Part shown: piece by piece, positions 1-8,316 of the stretch
How positions within the stretch are numbered: position 1 is the first letter of the stretch
Layout: each line of letters begins with the position of its first letter
Source of the DNA: Prolixibacteraceae bacterium
GTDB lineage: Bacteria; Bacteroidota; Bacteroidia; Bacteroidales; Prolixibacteraceae
Direction: 5' to 3'
Assembly (NCBI GenBank): GCA_018648265.1
Contig: JABGRN010000007.1
Coordinates: 1 to 64,000, forward strand
DNA: 64,000 nt
Notes under the pieces: model-generated
What the model was told of the DNA's origin: nothing
Databases searched by the model: none
The model's input: the letters and a program-made list of their open reading frames with translations, nothing else
Position numbers and translations under genes: made by a program

Positions 1-24
1 ATTTATCAAAATAAAAAGATAATA

Positions 25-1008
25 ATGTTTATTAAGCTGTATCAAATTACAAAATTTCTTATTTTAAAAATCATATATTTCATTTATCCGATTAAATATC
101 AAAAAGTATTGTGGCTAATTGGCTCAGGGAGAAGTGGAACAACATGGATTGCTTCATTAATTAATACAAATAATTTATATCGAGAGTTATTCGAACCATT
201 TCATTCTGGTATATGTGAAATGAAGTTAAGTGGATTTAAGAAAAATCTTTACTTGAGTGAAGATGTCAAAAATATTAGGCTAAATTTTTTATCAAAAAAA
301 ATTTTTAACGGCAATTTCTATAGTCCTGGGGTAGAAGGAACTAACAAGTTCTTGACTTTGTACAGGAAAGATGTTCTTCTTGTTAAGGATATATTTGCTA
401 ATCTACTTGCAAAAAATATTTGTGCCAGAAACGAAAAAATTAAACCTATCCTTCTTATAAGAAATCCCTTTGCCGTTGCATTGTCTATTAGGAATAAAAA
501 GAATTGGGATTGGATGAACGATCCAGCTGTACTATTAAAACAAAAATCACTTTTAGATGATTATTTGAAACCATTCCAAAAGCTTATTCTTAATACCTCG
601 AAAAATGGAAGTTGTTTAGATAAGCAAATTTTAATTTGGTCAATAATTAATTATATCCCGTTGGTGCAATTTGGAGAGGATGAACTATTGGTAACTTTTT
701 ATGAAGACTGGATTAGCAATCCAGAATTTGAGCTTGAGAAAACGTATATTTTCATTAATGAAAAACCTTTTTTCCCATTGCAAATTCAAAACAGCAAAAT
801 TTTTATTAATGCATCAAAGACAACTACTAAAAGTACATTTGATATTTTGGATTGGAAAGATATTTTAACGGTTGATGAGGTTTCTTCAGGAGAAAGAATT
901 CTCAAACAATTCGGGTTTGGGAATTTATATGATAAATTTTCAATTCCTAACCGAGGTGTTATTCAAGAAGTCCGTTCCAAATTTAAGACTCGTGTTGTTC
1001 ATTTTTAG
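25..1008 (+). CDS. sulfotransferase family protein
   Basis: A 327-residue protein that probably moves a sulfuryl group from PAPS to a sugar or other acceptor. The PAPS 5'-phosphosulfate loop is clear at residues 33-41 (GSGRSGTTW), after a hydrophobic N-terminal stretch that may touch the membrane. The second PAPS-binding region is seen as IRNPFAVALS, with Arg146. The length fits the Sulfotransfer_1/3 type. The acceptor cannot be read from the sequence. The gene ends inside the 3' end of the convergent glycosyltransferase (26-base overlap), and the pair suggests sulfated surface polysaccharide synthesis. The upstream context is outside the window. Confidence 0.8.
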   Translation: MFIKLYQITKFLILKIIYFIYPIKYQKVLWLIGSGRSGTTWIASLINTNNLYRELFEPFHSGICEMKLSGFKKNLYLSEDVKNIRLNFLSKKIFNGNFYSPGVEGTNKFLTLYRKDVLLVKDIFANLLAKNICARNEKIKPILLIRNPFAVALSIRNKKNWDWMNDPAVLLKQKSLLDDYLKPFQKLILNTSKNGSCLDKQILIWSIINYIPLVQFGEDELLVTFYEDWISNPEFELEKTYIFINEKPFFPLQIQNSKIFINASKTTTKSTFDILDWKDILTVDEVSSGERILKQFGFGNLYDKFSIPNRGVIQEVRSKFKTRVVHF

Positions 1009-2152
1009 CAGTATATAGGATTATTTCTCTGATTTTCTTTCCCCAAACCTCCCAATTTAATCTTTTTTCGTATTCAATTCTTGAATTATTAGCCATTTTT
1101 TTAAGTCTATTTCTATCTCCTAGTAGTTGTTTTAAAATCAAAAAATACTCTTCAGCGCCTGATTCCAAAGGTAGAGTAATTCCGTTCAATCCATCTTCTA
1201 TTATGGAGTTAACTCCCCCAGTATTAGTAGTTATAACAGGAATCCCATTGGCATTGGCTTCACAGAACACAATTGGGGTGCAATCTGCTTGTGTGGGGAC
1301 AAACAATATATGGGCCTGATTCATTAGTTGAAGAAAAACATCATTATCTTCTTTATTATTTTTATTTAAAAATGGAATAATCTTAACTTTAGGATGCGTA
1401 ATTTTTTTTGGAGGTGTACATCCGCATATTGTTAATTGTAAATTATAACCCGCCTTGTCCAACATTAAAAAGGTGTTAAAAACTATATCACCACCCTTCC
1501 GTTCCCAATCAACTCCTAAAAAAAGAAGGTGGATTTTTCCATCAAAGTCTTTGTTTGTATTTATTTTAGGGACATGATTAATATTGGCTCCAAAACTGAC
1601 AGTAAAAATATTATCTTTTTTTGAAACATAGTTTTGAGCCACATACTCAGAAGCCCATTTTGAAGAGTAAACCTGAGTGGTTGAATTATCAATGGCCCTT
1701 TTCTCGATTAAATTTCCTTCTAAAGAAGAGAGTCTTGACATACGACTAAATTCCTCATAATAGTTCTCAATTTGACCATATGAGGTATCGGCAAGATAAC
1801 AAATCGGAATATTGGTTTTTAAATAAGCAATTTCTACGGAACCAGAAGCTGCAAATAAAACGTCTAATTTCTTTTGTTTTAATTTTTGTTTTAATCGAAG
1901 TGCAAAGTATCTACTTGAAAGAATATTATGCCATTGATTATATCTTTTTTTTGCAATTAAATGAACCAGATGAACAAATAAATTGAATCCTTTAATAAAA
2001 AAATTCTTATGAATGGGACCCAATATGTGCACAACCTTAAATTCATTTGACAATGTTTGGTACATACTATGATGTATCCCAGACCAGCTTCTTTTATCCA
2101 AAGGATCAGAGGCAGTTAAATACCCGACTGAAAGTTCTTCTTTCTCTTTCAT
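983..2152 (-). CDS. glycosyltransferase, GT4-like
   Basis: A 389-residue GT-B fold glycosyltransferase, probably cytoplasmic and adding a sugar from a nucleotide donor to a growing glycan. The C-terminal half shows the group 1 pattern: a LLFLGVDWERKGGD segment near residue 210, then PIVFCEANANGIPVITTNTGG with the donor-phosphate-binding E-x7-E region near residues 290-325. The N-terminal half is less conserved. Its 3' end overlaps the sulfotransferase on the other strand. Donor and linkage are unknown. It could belong to an exopolysaccharide, O-antigen or T9SS-linked A-LPS-like pathway. Confidence 0.8.
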   Translation of the reverse strand: MKEKEELSVGYLTASDPLDKRSWSGIHHSMYQTLSNEFKVVHILGPIHKNFFIKGFNLFVHLVHLIAKKRYNQWHNILSSRYFALRLKQKLKQKKLDVLFAASGSVEIAYLKTNIPICYLADTSYGQIENYYEEFSRMSRLSSLEGNLIEKRAIDNSTTQVYSSKWASEYVAQNYVSKKDNIFTVSFGANINHVPKINTNKDFDGKIHLLFLGVDWERKGGDIVFNTFLMLDKAGYNLQLTICGCTPPKKITHPKVKIIPFLNKNNKEDNDVFLQLMNQAHILFVPTQADCTPIVFCEANANGIPVITTNTGGVNSIIEDGLNGITLPLESGAEEYFLILKQLLGDRNRLKKMANNSRIEYEKRLNWEVWGKKIREIILYTAKNEQHES

Positions 2153-2436
2153 AAATTCAAGTTTTATTGTTCAATTCAATCTTTTAATAAAGAAGGCTAT
2201 TTTTTTCACAAAGTACTAGGCGATTATTTCTGCATAAAACAATTTTGAAATGAATATATCAAATTTCTAATTATTAACTCTAAAAACAAATATACATTCT
2301 TAAAAAAACAAAGAAATTAAACAAAGAAAAAACTCATCAAGACTTGGAGAAGACAAAAGAGCTTTGTGGATCTAGCTAATCTATTATTCCCAGTCACGGA
2401 ATATTTCTTTCCTTTCTGTTCTTTCAAAAATTCCAG
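2153..2436. other. intergenic stretch without a gene
   Basis: About 280 AT-rich bases between the glycosyltransferase start and the promoter of the gltX remnant. I see no credible coding sequence, no terminator with a T-run, and no exact promoter element for the glycosyltransferase. Confidence 0.5.
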
Positions 2437-2444
2437 TACTTTTG
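2437..2444 (+). promoter_or_regulatory. relic -7 promoter element of gltX remnant
   Basis: TActTTTG is an exact match to the Bacteroidota -7 consensus TAnnTTTG. It lies 23 bases before the GTG at 2468 that opens the gltX remnant, so the copied or stranded piece includes its promoter and leader. No good -33 element is visible. It may still fire and make a useless transcript. Confidence 0.4.
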
Positions 2445-2467
2445 CATCAAAATTTAAGGGCTTTAAA

Positions 2468-2682
2468 GTGACTGCCAGAAAGTTACGGGTACGTTTTGCC
2501 CCAAGTCCTACCGGACCTTTACATATGGTTGGTGTAAAAACTGCTTAATTCAATTATCTATTTGCTAAAAAAAATGGTGGTGATTTTATTCTTCGCATTG
2601 AAGATACAGACCAAAATCGTTTTGTGGCAGGAGAAGAAAATTTATAATTGAAAGTTTAAACTGATGCGGACTAAGTCCGGTT
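2468..2682 (+). pseudogene. gltX: decayed 5' fragment of glutamyl-tRNA synthetase (gltX)
   Basis: Reading from GTG 2468 gives MTARKLRVRFAPSPTGPLHM, the class I synthetase N-terminus with the HIGH-region motif of GltX. At 2546-2548 a Leu codon has become TAA. The same frame then resumes as [20 protein letters not shown], again GltX. After RFVAG an indel shifts the frame, and the next piece reads IIESLN, a TGA in place of the expected Trp codon, then CGLSP. Homology stops near 2682. Only about the first 70 of roughly 500 codons remain, with a frameshift and two nonsense changes, so this is a dead fragment. A working gltX must exist elsewhere. Confidence 0.85.
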
Positions 2683-2684
2683 TA

Positions 2685-3515
2685 AAGATCCAGGAATTAG
2701 TGTGTTTATTTCAATTGAAAAGTATTTTACGAACATTCTTCAACTATCTAATTGAGAAAGACGACTACATCTTGAAAAATGTATGAAAGAAAGTAAAACC
2801 AAAATCAGAGAAGCCAACAAATATCAGTATCTCAGATAAAGAATTCTATGATTTACAATCTGTGACAAGTCCTGATGATGCAATTGCACAAATAGGTAAA
2901 ACAAAAAGAAATATGTATCGTCCATGGTTAAAAGATTTAATCAAACTGAAAGCTTTTACTGGTAGAAGAAATGCTGAACTTTTTGCAATGAGATGGAATA
3001 TGATTCACTTTGAAGATGATATGCCAATATATATTGAAAGTCCAAATATTAAAGTGAATAAGCATCAAAACAACTTTGATGAAAAAGATTATCAGTATGC
3101 TTATGTTCCAGTCGGAGACGAACTCTTGGAACTATTGGTTGATCTTAATTTGGAAAATATGCAAAATAGTGATGAATACATTATAGCACCAGATGTTGAA
3201 AACAGGGGAAATATTGAAAGGTATGCCAGTAGTTGCTTTGCTTTCTTCTTTAAGAAACTGAAACGAGGTTACATTAGACAATTAAAACACCTACGTAAAA
3301 CCTATGTAACCAGAGAAAGTTTATTTGTAAACGGTGGATTTTCAATGCAACATAGTAATTATCGAACCACGGAAAAACATTACATTGATAAGCGTGAGGT
3401 TGCTACACAAATGGTCAAAAATGGCTTTCGAATTTCTCCAAAACAAAACAAAAAGTGCACTCCAGTAGTGCACTCCAGTCATAAACAAAGAAGTCACACT
3501 TCTGTAACGTCTTGA
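2685..3515 (+). pseudogene. truncated tyrosine recombinase/integrase
   Basis: The catalytic half of a phage-type integrase survives: TGRRNAELFAMRW (catalytic Arg), LKHLRKTYVT (HxxR-like box) and HSNYRTTEKHYID with the likely nucleophile Tyr. An open frame from GTG 2862 gives 217 residues. Upstream in the same frame, 2685-2783 reads as the end of a core-binding domain (KSILRTFFNYLIEKDDYIL), separated by an in-frame TGA at 2784-2786. The N-terminal SAM-like domain is missing and the homology begins next to the gltX remnant. It is probably inactive. It sits just before a tRNA gene, the usual place for an integrase. Confidence 0.8.
3455..3479. repeat. short tandem repeat, unit GTGCACTCCAGTA
   Basis: GTGCACTCCAGTA at 3455-3467 is followed at once by GTGCACTCCAGT at 3468-3479. 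The repeat lies in the last codons of the integrase remnant, and each unit starts with the palindrome GTGCAC. It may be slippage in a decaying gene. Confidence 0.7.
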
Positions 3516-3524
3516 CAATCAAGG

Positions 3525-3599
3525 TGGGACATACTGGATTCGAACCAGTGACTTCTACCCTGTCAAGGTAACACTCTAAACCAACTGAGTTAATGTCCC
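3525..3599 (-). tRNA. tRNA-Val (anticodon GAC)
   Basis: The minus strand folds as a complete cloverleaf: acceptor GGGACAT/ATGTCCC, D-stem ACTC/GAGT, anticodon stem TTACC/GGTAG with loop TTGACAG (anticodon GAC in positions 34-36), and T-arm ACTGG-TTCGAAT-CCAGT with discriminator A. The CCA end is not encoded; the genome continues CCT. It is 75 bases long. It flanks the integrase remnant and is followed on its 5' side by a partial copy of itself. Confidence 0.92.
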
Positions 3600-3600
3600 A
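3576..3600. repeat. 25-bp direct repeat, copy 1 (5' half of tRNA-Val)
   Basis: The 25 bases covering the tRNA 5' acceptor strand and D-arm recur exactly at 3659-3683. A perfect copy of part of a tRNA beside an integrase remnant looks like an attachment-site duplication. However, elements usually duplicate the tRNA 3' end, and this is the 5' half. Confidence 0.8.
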
Positions 3601-3621
3601 TAAAACGATATTACAAAAAGA

Positions 3622-3682
3622 ACCACAATTTCTAACCTGTCATCCGTCGATTGACGGACTAAACCAACTGAGTTAATGTCCC
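3622..3682 (-). pseudogene. mosaic tRNA-Val pseudogene with inserted hairpin
   Basis: Read on the minus strand, this starts with the same 5' acceptor and D-arm as the tRNA-Val next door. It then carries TCCGTCAATCGACGGA, a perfect 6-bp hairpin with a 4-base loop (3643-3658), where the D-stem closing strand and anticodon 5' strand should be. It then returns to TGACAGGTTAGAA, close to the anticodon loop and 3' stem of the true gene. No T-arm or acceptor 3' strand follows. It cannot fold as a working tRNA and is probably a decayed tandem duplicate or attachment-site relic. Confidence 0.75.
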
Positions 3683-3752
3683 ATTCTGCAAAAGTAAAAA
3701 ACAAGTTCAGTAACGAAAAATATTACTGAACTTGTTTCTTTTAAAGTTCTAT

Positions 3753-5045
3753 TTATATAAAAAACTTCAAAATAAATAAAACCGCTAAAACAACCATTAC
3801 CACTGAGATATCCTTGAACTTTCCGGTTAAGGTTTTTAGCAAAACGTAAGTAAGCATCCCAAATACAATTCCTTCGGCAATACTATAAGTTAGCGGCATT
3901 ACAATAATTGTAATAAATGCCGGAATAGACTCTTTAAAATCATCAAACTTAATATTTAAAATTGGCGACATCATAAAGAAACCTACCAAAACCAGTGCGG
4001 GTGCAGTTGCAGCAGCGGGTACCATTGTAAACACCGGAGCAAAAAATAAGGCCAATAAAAATAAAACAGCAGTTGCCAGTGAGGTAAGTCCGGTTTTACC
4101 ACCCTCGGCAACCCCGGAAGCACTTTCAACATAAGTAGTAACAGTACTTGTCCCGAACATTGCGCCAAAAGTAGTACCGATTGAATCGGCGAAAAGAGCT
4201 TGTTTTACACGTGGTACTTTTCCATCTTTGTCTAACATTCCGGCTTTCGACGAAACGCCAACCAAGGTTCCAACGGTATCAAACATGTCAACAAAAAGAA
4301 AAGTAAACAGTACAATTAACATGTCGAAAGTAAATACTTTTGAAAAATCAAATTTCCAAAAAATGGGAGCAAGAGAAGGCGGCGTGTCAACCAAATTTCC
4401 TTCTGGCATATGAGTTACACCCAATGGAATTCCAACAATGGTAGCCACAAAAATTCCGATTAACAATGCACCTTTTACTTTTAAAGCAAGCAAAACAGCA
4501 ATTAAAACTATTCCACCCAAAGCAATTAAAACTGCCGGCGAGCCCATATTTCCCAATCCTACCAATGTTGCATCGTTATTTACTATCAGCCCGGCATTTT
4601 GCAAACCTATAAAAGCTATAAATAATCCAATACCAACAGAAACAGCATGTTTTAGTGAGAGGGGAATTGCATTAACAATGAGTTCGCGAATGTTGAAAAT
4701 GGTTAAAATCAGAAATATAATTCCTTCGAGAAAAACAGCGGTTAACGCAAATTGCCAACTATAGCCCATTCCGAGAACTACGGTAAACGCAAAAAAGGCA
4801 TTTAAGCCCATCCCGGGGGCAAGTGCAAATGGCAATTTTGCCACCAAAGCCATAACTAAAGTAGCCACAAAAGCCGAAAGTGCCGTTGCCGTAAACAGGG
4901 CATTTTTGTCCATTCCGGTTGCGCTTAGAATATCAGGGTTTACCGCTAAAATATAGGCCATCGTCATAAAAGTGGTAATTCCCGCCACTATTTCAGTTTT
5001 AACAGTGGTATTATTTTCTTTTAATTTGAAGAATTGGTTTAGCAT
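3753..5045 (-). CDS. NCS2-family nucleobase permease
   Basis: A 430-residue inner-membrane permease with about 12-14 hydrophobic segments, of the AzgA/PbuG/AdeP branch of NCS2 that imports purine bases with protons. Family marks are the N-terminal EIVAGITTFMTMAYILAVNP, the LAPGMGLNAFFAFTVV helix motif and the FVDMFDTVGTLVGV segment with acidic residues in the substrate site. The length is normal. Adenine versus guanine/hypoxanthine preference cannot be decided. It lies 10 bases downstream of a putative outer-membrane protein gene in the same direction, so the two are probably co-transcribed and serve one uptake route. Confidence 0.88.
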   Translation of the reverse strand: MLNQFFKLKENNTTVKTEIVAGITTFMTMAYILAVNPDILSATGMDKNALFTATALSAFVATLVMALVAKLPFALAPGMGLNAFFAFTVVLGMGYSWQFALTAVFLEGIIFLILTIFNIRELIVNAIPLSLKHAVSVGIGLFIAFIGLQNAGLIVNNDATLVGLGNMGSPAVLIALGGIVLIAVLLALKVKGALLIGIFVATIVGIPLGVTHMPEGNLVDTPPSLAPIFWKFDFSKVFTFDMLIVLFTFLFVDMFDTVGTLVGVSSKAGMLDKDGKVPRVKQALFADSIGTTFGAMFGTSTVTTYVESASGVAEGGKTGLTSLATAVLFLLALFFAPVFTMVPAAATAPALVLVGFFMMSPILNIKFDDFKESIPAFITIIVMPLTYSIAEGIVFGMLTYVLLKTLTGKFKDISVVMVVLAVLFILKFFI

Positions 5046-5055
5046 AATTTTTTAT

Positions 5056-5736
5056 TTAGAAGGTAATTTTAGCACCTAAAGTTGGCATCACATTAAAACC
5101 TTTCATTCCTCCAAAATTGGCATTTAACTCAACCTCGCTACCCAAAGCAAAATTTTTATTGAAATTATACCAAAGTTGTGGTTCAGCCAAAAAAACAAAT
5201 TTAGTTTCTTCGAACCCGAATACAAAATCTTCGCGCCATAAATCAGCAAAACCTGTAAACGACAATTTATTGTTTGCGAAATTCACATACCAAATTCCCG
5301 TCAATTGAAAAGAAGCATTATGTTTCCCACGAATATATTTGTAAAGGGCTTGTAATGTAAATCCTTTTGAAAAATCGCTGGCATTCCATGAATAATCGAA
5401 ACCTGTTAACCATGCATCTTCAATTTGAAACGACCCTCCTGGTGCATATTGCCCGAATCCACCGTTATATTCAGCATGAAAAGCAAAAGACGAGTCTCCC
5501 AATTTTAAAGCACGGGCAATTTCCCAGTAAGCCATACTAATACCTTCAATATCACCAACATTGTAATCCATGTCGATAAATAAAAAAGTACTTCCCATTT
5601 TATCGGGTTTAAACATTTCTATTGTTGAAGTAAAAAATCCCCTACCCTCGCCCATATCGTAATGCAATTGTACATTTTGTGCATTTCCGATCATAATTAT
5701 TCCTACAAATAAAAAAACAAGTTGAATTCTTTTCAT
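5056..5736 (-). CDS. DUF5020-like putative outer-membrane channel protein
   Basis: A 226-residue protein with a signal peptide (MKRIQLVFLFVGIIMIGNAQ) followed by alternating aromatic/polar strands (VQLHYDMGEG, TSTIEMFKPD, STFLFIDMDYN) and a terminal strand NVMPTLGAKITF, as in a small 10-12-stranded barrel. It resembles the DUF5020 family, which is compared with the Tsx nucleoside channel. Placed just upstream of the NCS2 permease, it may let nucleosides or bases through the outer membrane. Family assignment is from memory of the pattern, and channel function is inference. Confidence 0.65.
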   Translation of the reverse strand: MKRIQLVFLFVGIIMIGNAQNVQLHYDMGEGRGFFTSTIEMFKPDKMGSTFLFIDMDYNVGDIEGISMAYWEIARALKLGDSSFAFHAEYNGGFGQYAPGGSFQIEDAWLTGFDYSWNASDFSKGFTLQALYKYIRGKHNASFQLTGIWYVNFANNKLSFTGFADLWREDFVFGFEETKFVFLAEPQLWYNFNKNFALGSEVELNANFGGMKGFNVMPTLGAKITF

Positions 5737-5876
5737 ATAAATAAACTTAATGTTAAACCCTGTTTAAATTTTGACGCTAAAATAAACAAATAACTTTAAC
5801 CGAAATAATGAAAATGTGCTGAGGTTTTTTATATTCATTTCAAATTTTTATATTAACCGACATAAATACAATCAAA

Positions 5877-6776
5877 ATGAAAAAAATAGGCAGGAGAAAT
5901 TTTATTCAAAAAAGTGCTCGAGGTTTGGCAGGTGCAGTTGCTTTGGGTTCTGGCTTTTCGAACATGAGTTTTATTCCAACCGGTAGTGCTACAATCGACA
6001 TGGTTGATTTAGGCAAAACCGGAATGAAAATACCCCGGCTGGCCCTGGGGACAGGTTCGCATGGTTGGGCAAATACCTCGAACCAAAAAAAACTTGGAGA
6101 AAAAAAGTTTATTCAACTGGCTAAACATGCTTACGATCGCGGTGTCCGTTTTTTTGACACAGCCGATATGTACGGAACTCACGAACTTGTTGGAAGGGCT
6201 TTAAAAGAATTTCAACGCGAAGAAGTTACGGTCCTATCTAAAATAATGGTTTACAAACATCAGGATTGGTACACACCCGAACCGTTTCAGAAAAGTATCG
6301 ACCGGTTTAGAAAAGAATTAGATACCGATTATATCGACATTCTGCTATTACACTGCATGGTAAACAGCGAGTGGCCCGATGAATATAAACGTTACATGGA
6401 TGCGTATTCTGAGGCAAAAGAAAAAGGGATTATTAAAAAAATTGGGTTCTCTTGCCATGATTTGGGTGCACTTAAAGTTGGTGCAAAAAGTGATTGGCCC
6501 GATGTACTGCTTGCCCGGATAAATCACAACGGCGCAAAAATGGATGGTCCGCCTTCAGAAATTATGCAGGTTCTTAATGAAGCTCAGCAAAGTGGAAAAG
6601 GGGTGATTGGAATGAAAATTTTTGGTTGTGGGGATCTTGTAAAAGATGAACAGCGTGAAGAATCGTTAAATTATGTACTCAAAAGCAACAATGTACACAG
6701 CATGACAATTGGCATGGAAAACACCGAACAGGTTGACGATGCTGTTGAGCGGATTATGCGTATCGTAAAATCGTAA
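5877..6776 (+). CDS. Tat-exported aldo/keto reductase
   Basis: A 299-residue aldo/keto reductase with an N-terminal twin-arginine signal (GRRNFIQKSARGLAGAVALG), so it is probably exported folded with its NADP cofactor. The catalytic tetrad is present: Asp and Tyr in FFDTADMYG, Lys in VLSKIM, His in LLLLHCMV. The C-terminal cofactor-binding part ends in SMTIGMENTEQVDDAV. It stands alone between the DUF5020 gene (divergent) and a convergent DUF2461 gene. The substrate is unknown. It is a distant relative of the two tandem reductases at 41.9-43.9 kb. Confidence 0.85.
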   Translation: MKKIGRRNFIQKSARGLAGAVALGSGFSNMSFIPTGSATIDMVDLGKTGMKIPRLALGTGSHGWANTSNQKKLGEKKFIQLAKHAYDRGVRFFDTADMYGTHELVGRALKEFQREEVTVLSKIMVYKHQDWYTPEPFQKSIDRFRKELDTDYIDILLLHCMVNSEWPDEYKRYMDAYSEAKEKGIIKKIGFSCHDLGALKVGAKSDWPDVLLARINHNGAKMDGPPSEIMQVLNEAQQSGKGVIGMKIFGCGDLVKDEQREESLNYVLKSNNVHSMTIGMENTEQVDDAVERIMRIVKS

Positions 6777-6798
6777 CAAATACAAGTTAAATTAAGAT

Positions 6799-6821
6799 GC
6801 CCTGGTCAGAACAACCAGGGC
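6799..6821 (+). terminator. hairpin after the aldo/keto reductase
   Basis: An 8-bp stem GCCCTGGT / ACCAGGGC with a 7-base loop lies 22 bases after the reductase stop and between convergent genes. The tail (AAGTTTCATT) is only weakly T-rich, so termination is likely but not certain. Confidence 0.55.
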
Positions 6822-6913
6822 AAGTTTCATTGAAATAGGGAAGATAAAAAAAAGGGTCATTTTTAATATATATTCCCAAAAAGCCAAAAAGGTAACCCTA
6901 TTATTTGCGTTTT

Positions 6914-7573
6914 TTACATATTTTTATCTAAGGCTGTATTTAAAAAAGCATTTACATTATATAATTTTCTAAATGCCTTTACAACATTCTCAATGAAATT
7001 TTCACCCAATAATTCCTCCTTTTTAAGATTGGTTGAAAAAGCAAATGATTTATAACGCAGTAAATCAATAAATTCATGATCTTTGGGAAATCCTTTTGGT
7101 GCTGTTTTTAATTTATCACCGTACATTTCAGGATAAACTTGTTTAAATTCCTTGTCGTTAATAATAGCATAAAATTCATCGCCATGATCTGCAATATATT
7201 TGCGAATAGCTTTTAAAGGTTCTGCCGATGGCATGTAAATTCCCCCGCCCATAAAACTTCCTTCAGGCTCGATGTGAAAATAATAACCGGCACTTATACT
7301 TTTCCGCCCATCTTTAGCAATAAAACTGCCGAAATTATTTTTGTAGGGCTGCTTGTTTTTCGAAAACCGAACATCCCTAAAAATCCGGAACATACAATCT
7401 TTTGGATTCATTACGGGGATATCTTTATCCCATTTTCTTATCTCGTTAATCAAAACTTCGGTTATAAAAAGAACTTTATCGCGGTTTTCTTCGTAACGTT
7501 TTCGGTTGGCATGAAACCACTCTTTATTATTGTTCTCAGAAAGTTCATTCAGAAATTGTAATACTTTTTCCAT
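6914..7573 (-). CDS. DUF2461 family protein
   Basis: A 219-residue conserved protein of unknown function (DUF2461/TIGR02453). Recognisable are the N-terminal LQFLNELSENNNKEWFHANR, the central CMFRIFRDVRFSKNKQPYKNNFG and SAGYYFHIEPEGSFMGGGIYMP. No signal peptide or membrane segment is seen, so it is probably cytoplasmic. The conserved charged and aromatic residues suggest a ligand- or nucleic-acid-binding role, but no activity is established to my knowledge. It is divergently transcribed from ispD across about 70 bases. Confidence 0.85.
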   Translation of the reverse strand: MEKVLQFLNELSENNNKEWFHANRKRYEENRDKVLFITEVLINEIRKWDKDIPVMNPKDCMFRIFRDVRFSKNKQPYKNNFGSFIAKDGRKSISAGYYFHIEPEGSFMGGGIYMPSAEPLKAIRKYIADHGDEFYAIINDKEFKQVYPEMYGDKLKTAPKGFPKDHEFIDLLRYKSFAFSTNLKKEELLGENFIENVVKAFRKLYNVNAFLNTALDKNM

Positions 7574-7592
7574 CGTTAATTTGAATTTAAAT

Positions 7593-7600
7593 TACTTTTG
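7593..7600 (+). promoter_or_regulatory. -7 promoter element of ispD
   Basis: TActTTTG matches the Bacteroidota -7 consensus exactly and lies 41 bases before the ispD start codon. No TTTG at the usual -33 distance is visible. Confidence 0.45.
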
Positions 7601-7641
7601 CCGTAAGTTAATATCTCTTTTTTTAATTAACAGAAAGTTAC

Positions 7642-8316
7642 ATGAAAAAGTTTGCTTTAATAGTTGCCGGAGGAAGTGGAAATAGAATGAAAAATTCAAT
7701 TCCGAAACAATTTATTGAATTAGAAGGCAAACCAGTGTTAATGCATACTTTCGATGTTTTTAAAAAATACGATCCCAAAATTGAATTTATTTTAATAATT
7801 CCTGAAGACCAAGTTCAACAATGGAAATCGTTGTGCGATAAATATAGATTTAAACTAAAACACAAACTTGCTTTTGGTGGCAAAACACGATTTCATTCTG
7901 TAAAAAGCGGATTAAATTTAATTTCGGAAGAGGGGATTGTATTTATTCATGATGGAGTGCGACCGTTAGTTTCTGTTAAAACAGTTACAAATTGTTTTAA
8001 TACAACACTTGAAAAAGGAAATGCACTCCCGGTAATTTCGGCAGTTGAATCGATTCGTTTTTCTGATGGGAATAATAACAAATCTGTTGACCGATCTAAC
8101 TATTTTTTGGTGCAAACACCACAAACTTTCAAAGTTGAATTAATTAAAAAAGCATATTCACAAGATTATTCAAAAGAATTTACCGACGATTCTTCGGTTT
8201 TGGAAAAAATAGGAGAAAAAATAAACCTGGTAGAAGGAAACCGCGAAAACATTAAAATTACTTACCCTGAAGATTTATTAATTGCAAAAACTTTGATTGA
8301 AAAATCAGCAAATTAA
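7642..8316 (+). CDS. ispD: 2-C-methyl-D-erythritol 4-phosphate cytidylyltransferase
   Basis: A 224-residue enzyme of the non-mevalonate (MEP) isoprenoid pathway that joins CTP and MEP to give CDP-ME in the cytoplasm. The nucleotide-binding start ALIVAGGSGNRMKNSIPKQF, the FIHDGVRPLVS segment with its metal-binding Asp, and the QTPQTFKVELIKKAY and FTDDSSVLE motifs are all typical. The length is that of a stand-alone IspD, with no IspF fusion. It appears monocistronic under the TAnnTTTG element at 7593. Confidence 0.93.
   Translation: MKKFALIVAGGSGNRMKNSIPKQFIELEGKPVLMHTFDVFKKYDPKIEFILIIPEDQVQQWKSLCDKYRFKLKHKLAFGGKTRFHSVKSGLNLISEEGIVFIHDGVRPLVSVKTVTNCFNTTLEKGNALPVISAVESIRFSDGNNNKSVDRSNYFLVQTPQTFKVELIKKAYSQDYSKEFTDDSSVLEKIGEKINLVEGNRENIKITYPEDLLIAKTLIEKSAN

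Follow-up and report, generated by a model that had tools for sequence, protein, structure and literature searches.

In relatives of the bacterium studied here, nucleotides (nt) 25–34 of the host tRNA-Val(GAC) gene have been precisely replaced by a hairpin-ended unit that carries a tRNA together with GIY-YIG coding sequence. The window (the whole 64,000-nucleotide stretch of DNA analysed) contains an intact tRNA-Val(GAC) gene and, next to it, a mosaic of tRNA segments and a hairpin, which is probably the displaced 5' half left by a GIY-YIG unit that inserted at the anticodon arm (nt 24/35).

Organization of the tRNA-Val(GAC) locus

The sole tRNA gene in the window is tRNA-Val(GAC), which ARAGORN places on the minus strand at 3523-3599 and which matches the Rfam tRNA family RF00005 at 3525-3599 (64.8 bits). 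An earlier, sequence-only reading had reported this complete gene, followed by a second copy of its 5' half. The copy is real, but it lies upstream of the minus-strand tRNA, between a promoter-like box and the gene, rather than after it. The blocks described in that reading, with the copy resuming at the anticodon loop beyond the hairpin, are correct. Read on the minus strand, the mosaic consists of GGGACATTAACTCAGTTGGTTTAG (3682-3659, tRNA nt 1-24), the 16-nt hairpin TCCGTCAATCGACGGA (3658-3643), TGACAGG (3642-3636, from U33 and the anticodon on) and TTAGAAATTGTGGTTC (3635-3620), a decayed stretch with GGTTC as its last bases. Where the mosaic holds the hairpin, the intact tRNA has the 10 nt AGTGTTACCT (nt 25-34). 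The run of identity between mosaic and intact gene is 26 nt, including two bases ahead of the tRNA. The copy differs from an ordinary decayed tandem tRNA: 24 identical nt are followed by a block replacement rather than by gradual point changes. The same layout of the resumed copy is found in genome G027 and in Mariniphaga sp.

The box TACTTTTG resembles the Bacteroidetes -7 box, TAnnTTTG, and comparable boxes precede the mosaics in relatives. If TACTTTTG is a promoter box, the mosaic would be transcribed as part of the tRNA's 5' leader.

Table 1. Features of the tRNA-Val(GAC) locus in the window
Feature	Position	Strand	Basis or remark
Truncated tyrosine recombinase, C terminus toward tRNA 3' end	2787..3515	+	PHROG 1 integrase, 2.1e-9
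Two direct copies of GCACTCCAG beside recombinase	3457..3478	.	
Intact tRNA-Val(GAC)	3524..3599	-	ARAGORN; Rfam RF00005
A+T-rich spacer, mosaic to intact tRNA	3600..3619	-	
Resumed copy: TGACAGG (U33, anticodon GAC, following) and decayed 3' anticodon arm, variable loop, T arm	3620..3642	-	
Hairpin TCCGTC-AATC-GACGGA replacing tRNA nt 25-34	3643..3658	-	Same as terminal palindrome of element in relatives
Displaced copy, tRNA nt 1-24 (5' arms of the acceptor and D stems, D loop)	3659..3682	-	Identical to intact tRNA
Promoter-like box TACTTTTG	3689..3696	-	Sequence
Permease gene	3753..5045	-	Conserved in relatives as the gene upstream of tRNA-Val(GAC)

Empty and filled sites in related genomes

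Relatives hold both empty and filled versions of the site. Genome G024 has a plain tRNA-Val(GAC), and G010 matches it on both sides of the locus, through 722 bp (95.4%) that end at tRNA nt 24 and 725 bp (90.5%) that begin at nt 35. The 10 nt in between are replaced in G010 by a 732-bp insert, which has TCCGTCAGCTGACGGA at its start and end; inside it are two GIY-YIG ORFs and a whole tRNA-Val(GAC) whose stems differ. A comparison of G005 (empty) with G002 (filled) gave the same junctions and the same insert length (732 bp, two ORFs). Site-specific insertion, with empty and filled alleles, was thus found in the pairs G024/G010 and G005/G002, though in no pair that includes the window's own genome. 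The unit in G028 is 398 bp long, with a complete tRNA-Val(GAC), one GIY-YIG ORF and the hairpin at both ends. For G032 (empty) and G004 (filled), in which the upstream permeases are identical, the left junction is as in G010, and the 3' half is missing in G004. In G002, G020 and G028, the acceptor arms of the two flanking halves are native and match each other, and the enclosed tRNA has a different one; in G010 the native arms of the halves match with one mismatch, and the enclosed tRNA again differs.

We then surveyed the locus across 37 genomes of the genus. Seven had no readable intact tRNA-Val(GAC) locus and were left out, giving 30 loci from Draconibacterium/Maribellus relatives. A mosaic lies upstream of the tRNA in 11 of these and is absent from 19. 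In nine of the 11 mosaic loci, the acceptor arm of the intact tRNA differs from that of the mosaic; for G020, the stretch compared in this count is a second insert, and the native acceptor was identified separately. The window departs from this pattern, as its intact tRNA and its mosaic have the same arms. The anticodon arm of the intact tRNA is CATGC/GCATG in eight genomes and otherwise TTACC/GGTAG (CTACC in G007). Seven of the eight CATGC-arm genomes have a mosaic, compared to 4 of the 22 others (Fisher P = 0.0011, uncorrected for kinship). The CATGC-arm state is spread over the tree built from the neighbouring permease, its 8 rows entailing 8 changes, at least 6 of them forced by supported branches; permease readings are missing for 3 of the 30 loci (too short in G015, another ORF in G026, none in G027). 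Together with the empty/filled pairs, this scatter looks like mobile insertion. Among named records, the mosaic occurs in 21 stretches, from Draconibacterium, Maribellus, Mariniphaga and other Bacteroidetes.

These comparisons support two suggestions made from the sequence alone, that the mosaic is a relic of integration and that it is more than a simple attachment-site repeat, as relatives hold empty and filled sites with identical junctions. The case that would have spoken against the earlier description, a tandem tRNA that decayed in the ordinary way and has no insertion, is not what the relatives show.

Recurrence and dispersal of the hairpin

Hairpins with a 6-bp stem and a 4-nt loop are common, numbering 24 in the window, and shuffling the mosaic produced a 6-bp stem in 0.097 of cases. 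The hairpin alone is therefore not significant. Its recurrence is another matter: of the 25 genus genomes searched, 21 have TCCGTCNNNNGACGGATG, as opposed to 1 of 16 outside the genus (order sample), and the reversed-pattern control gave none in the 41. Matches to TCCGTCNNNNGACGGATG number up to 18 per genus genome, palindromic sites being counted twice. The combination of tRNA and hairpin, searched as a strict pattern, is present in 11 of the 37 genus genomes. Both the hairpin and the mosaic thus recur in the genus far beyond coincidence. Recurrence makes a chance origin of the hairpin unlikely, although single copies stay compatible with chance.

In a class-wide set of 395 genomes, TCCGTCRRYYGACGGATG is present in 10, from several families, and the exact hairpin occurs in 14 stretches of viral contigs. 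Read by eye, the contexts include terminator-like stems, tips of longer palindromes, side stems of cobalamin riboswitches and repeats of type CGTCATTGCGAGA; the sites read were a hand-picked part of the matches listed, and the selection pattern required a following TG, which carries no meaning there. A cobalamin riboswitch (Rfam RF00174) was detected in 5 of the 8 hairpin loci searched. GIY-YIG units are not the palindrome's only setting; it also occurs far from tRNAs and GIY-YIG genes. Mobilization by a RAYT/REP system was considered and rejected: the TCCGTC..GACGGA hairpin was seen at none of 30 Y1_Tnp loci, one of which had the shorter CCGTCATAGACGG.

Among the riboswitch loci, L136, L119, L087, L085 and L075 carry the TCCGTC..GACGGA hairpin in variable stems. 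L136 has three stems of this type, two of them imperfect, in one riboswitch, and the L119 riboswitch has a CCCGAT..ATCGGG stem in addition. The palindromes at loci L123-L129, all in G001, are longer: the TCCGTC hairpin forms their tip, their arms are long and imperfect, and they are repeated within the genome.

GIY-YIG ORFs adjoining other tRNA genes

The GIY-YIG ORFs of relatives were identified by Pfam matches (1.2e-17 and 4.1e-15). A two-sequence GIY-YIG profile recovered the ORF in 25 of 30 loci; tRNAs of many kinds adjoin these ORFs, with a same-strand tRNA within 700 nt in 14 of the 25. To see how the proteins relate to their neighbours, we collapsed identical sequences (77 to 61), relabelled arrays by their head tRNA and built a tree. 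The tree sorts by adjoining tRNA: 13 groups require 13 changes, where the minimum is 12, while label shuffles averaged 38.3 changes and in 0 of 200 cases fell as low as 13. The 15 Val(GAC) rows lie on one side of a branch with support 92/83. One caveat here is that the tree rests on 88 columns only and that near-copies inflate the clustering. As evidence on the target specificity of the putative nuclease, the sorting is an association only.

Displaced tRNA copies next to GIY-YIG ORFs of other tRNA families bear palindromes of other sequences. Val(TAC) and Asn copies have TCCCGAT..ATCGGGA in the anticodon arm, a Met copy has TCCGCCAGCCGGCGGA, His copies have TCCCGATTCAGGTCGGGA in the T arm, and an Arg-like copy has CCTGCCTGCCGGCAGGCAGG in the D loop; the Ser(GGA) case and one Gly case are ambiguous, and for tRNA-Asp, no displaced copy was found beside a GIY-YIG ORF. 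By shuffling, the hairpin reaches P < 0.05 in 8 of 20 displaced copies. A native anticodon arm that looks uncut stands beside the ORF at the tandem GIY-YIG loci of G009 and G019, and in G020 as well.

Tandem arrays occur in G009 behind tRNA-His (L293; 6 ORFs, ~446-bp units) and behind tRNA-Gly (L294; 3 ORFs, ~435-bp units). At copies beside GIY-YIG ORFs in L296, L299, L303, L305 and L295, ARAGORN reports tRNA-Lys, -Cys, -Arg, -Phe and a stop-reading tRNA. Those of the calls matching a displaced Val(TAC) copy appear to be artefacts of annotation.

Two tRNA-Val halves on different contigs and a tyrosine recombinase

The window corresponds to C91, one of the 164 contigs that make up the 5.58-Mb genome. 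A 3' half of tRNA-Val is found on contig C133 (38776-38818; 95%, query 136-177, E = 1.2e-11), preceded by CAACTGACGGATGACAGG, which comprises the right arm of the hairpin and a mosaic-like junction. A candidate direct att repeat, TGACAGG.TAGAA, is present on both C91 and C133, which are unjoined. Since the halves lie on different contigs and the neighbours of the C133 half are not found beside tRNA-Val in the relatives examined, the split is not demonstrated in the window's own genome; C133 as the conserved right flank of tRNA-Val was likewise unconfirmed in those relatives. No GIY-YIG ORF was found in positions 1-8000 of the window or around the C133 half. Elsewhere in the genome, contig C162 has a GIY-YIG relic (7.2e-8) behind a tRNA-Val(TAC), whose leader copy carries another hairpin.

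In the window, on the side of the intact tRNA-Val(GAC) away from the mosaic and 8 bp from the end of the gene, lies an integrase remnant, the C-terminal part of a tyrosine recombinase whose frame is broken by stops upstream; its Pfam match (PF00589, 0.0025) is below the cut-off. The copies of GCACTCCAG beside it are possibly recombinase arm sites. The 9-mer CTGGAGTGC, present twice beside the recombinase, also lies near both ends (2239 and 14839) of a 12.8-kb insertion in the tRNA-Val(GAC) of G031 (L071, 2165-14946). That insertion is bounded by 13-bp direct repeats of tRNA nt 34-46, has its own CATGC-arm tRNA-Val and no hairpin at its junctions, and encodes a recombinase fragment related to that of the window (67% over 43 aa). 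It also contains an ORF for a 3255-aa repeat protein. Inserts of two kinds thus make use of this tRNA-Val site, and both may have occurred at the window locus.

Origin of the mosaic

As we picture insertion of the GIY-YIG unit, its protein would make a cut within the anticodon arm of the host gene, and repair from a filled copy would install the element, as in homing. The hairpin that takes the place of the cut site would keep both junctions from being recut and stop the halves from forming a tRNA, and the tRNA carried by the unit would keep the cell alive. In the window, the GIY-YIG ORF would since have been lost, and the halves separated by insertion of the tyrosine recombinase or by another rearrangement, leaving the 3' half on what is now C133. 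The native arms beside the ORF in G009, G019 and G020 are difficult to reconcile with cutting of that arm by the nuclease. A broader proposal is that of a natural cleave-and-rescue family, in which isotype-specific GIY-YIG nucleases would cut an essential tRNA gene, bring its replacement and close the two junctions with a palindrome drawn from a pool of dispersed hairpins, solo hairpins then being partly footprints, akin to the solo LTRs of retrotransposons. We offer this generalization tentatively and consider it somewhat doubtful.

The split could instead have been made by the adjoining tyrosine recombinase. An island would then have entered at TGACAGG.TAGAA, with the intact tRNA as its restored end, C133 as its far end, and the hairpin foreign to the event. 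The nearness of the integrase remnant to the tRNA end fits this account, as do the G031 insertion, with its 13-bp repeats, own tRNA-Val and related recombinase fragment, and the 9-mer that it shares with the two sites beside the window's recombinase. However, the G031 halves are hairpin-free, whereas the window's 5' half carries the hairpin and the right arm, at least, precedes the half on C133; moreover, the recombinase is truncated and the 9-mer has no copy near the C133 half. We therefore regard a recombinase-made split as unlikely. Binding of a recombinase by the hairpin, a possibility raised in the sequence-only reading, stays hypothetical: the hairpin marks the ends of GIY-YIG units, and the G031 insert, which carries a recombinase fragment, has none at its junctions. 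Template switching, also put forward there, is not supported as the source, the hairpin being a dispersed repeat that does not derive from the local tRNA.

This dispersal (21 of 25 genus genomes, 10 of 395 in the class, and sites in terminators, palindrome tips and riboswitches) would also suit a decayed tandem tRNA copy hit by an ultra-short mobile palindrome, of the repetitive hairpin element type, with no nuclease involved. Truncated leader copies lacking an intervening GIY-YIG ORF, in G027, Mariniphaga, and beside tRNA-Gly and tRNA-Ser, point the same way. Against such an origin, the junction of nt 24, hairpin and U33 is common to the Val copies and has its matching place in Gly and Ser, the palindrome stands at both ends of whole inserts, and displaced copies beside other-family GIY-YIG ORFs bear other palindromes; we think it quite improbable. 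Finally, the mosaic might be a functional 5' leader RNA, its hairpins between the loops insulating the real tRNA from the half-copy or serving in processing or control. Its placement in relatives, between a promoter-like box and the tRNA, would allow this, and for 4 of the 9 leaders the predicted pairing of the tRNA falls once the native arm is restored (the window's own, 0.61 to 0.51; G027, 0.49 to 0.27; Mariniphaga, 0.53 to 0.33; G020, 0.90 to 0.61). The effect is absent in the other 5, and for the window's own leader 0.70 of the shuffled versions score no higher than the real hairpin, which is thus not special; 19 of the 30 genus loci have no upstream mosaic at all. With a predicted effect this weak and inconsistent among leaders, we rejected insulation, and a leader function of any kind seems very improbable. 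A group I intron was also rejected, as only tRNA was matched, at gathering cut-offs, in the window and in 8 further loci searched.

Relation to known systems

Tyrosine-recombinase islands target a tRNA, restore a working tRNA and leave displaced fragments. The GIY-YIG units described here differ in that, at 0.4-0.7 kb, they are too small for a recombinase, and their junctions are hairpins rather than direct att repeats. Engineered cleave-and-rescue drives combine a nuclease against an essential gene with a carried replacement copy; here, by contrast, the system is natural and bacterial, cleavage is putative, and the replacement is not recoded in G020, G009 and G019.

Phage SegB is a free-standing GIY-YIG homing endonuclease that, according to the accessible part of one report, often lies near tRNAs of many isotypes (PMC13096335). 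As far as that part goes, the likeness to SegB of T-even phages extends to GIY-YIG ORFs beside many tRNA isotypes and to segments tandemly amplified with tRNA (PMC13096335). Unlike SegB, the ORFs of the present units are of ~80 aa, reside in bacterial chromosomes and encode a putative nuclease; the host tRNA is split at the anticodon arm, a whole replacement tRNA is carried, and palindromes mark both ends. The available portion of a study of mitochondrial repetitive and double hairpin elements describes very short palindromes in intergenic DNA and RNA genes, some of them without flanking duplications (PMC2800124). Ours are likewise very short and dispersed, but are bacterial and also form the ends of a GIY-YIG unit. 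REP palindromes with a CGTC tag occur in Bacteroidetes with no flanking transposase, as stated in the accessible text of another study (PMC3733652). These and GTAG-tagged REPs are, like the present hairpin, short dispersed bacterial palindromes; in that text, however, the tag is unpaired and CGTC-tagged REPs have 8-9-bp stems, whereas here CGTC lies inside a 6-bp stem (PMC3733652). The accessible part of a GIY-YIG survey contains passages on tRNA, none of them on tRNA-splitting, hairpin-ended units (PMC1564403), and the papers listed for the hairpin's half-sites concern, by title, other subjects. A search of open-access papers by title and start of abstract gave none that describes hairpin-ended GIY-YIG units in bacterial tRNA genes.

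If the proposed reading is right, it shows a way for a selfish nuclease to live in an essential tRNA gene that does not depend on an intron: the nuclease unit carries that gene's replacement. It would also explain tandem tRNA/GIY-YIG arrays and pseudo-tRNAs annotated with odd anticodons, and would provide a source or sink for tiny dispersed palindromes whose movement is poorly understood. Closely related bacteria in culture, with naturally empty and naturally filled alleles, would offer a test bed.

Hairpins in further leader copies

In G188, from another family of the class, leader copies of tRNA-Ser(GCT) and tRNA-Gly carry the hairpin (L235, L226), and in the tRNA-Gly copy the anticodon loop itself is replaced by it. 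In the Val leader copies of L199 and L210, hairpins precede both the D loop and the anticodon loop; L210 has a further one before the T loop. In both of these Val copies, the loops survive and the stems are replaced.
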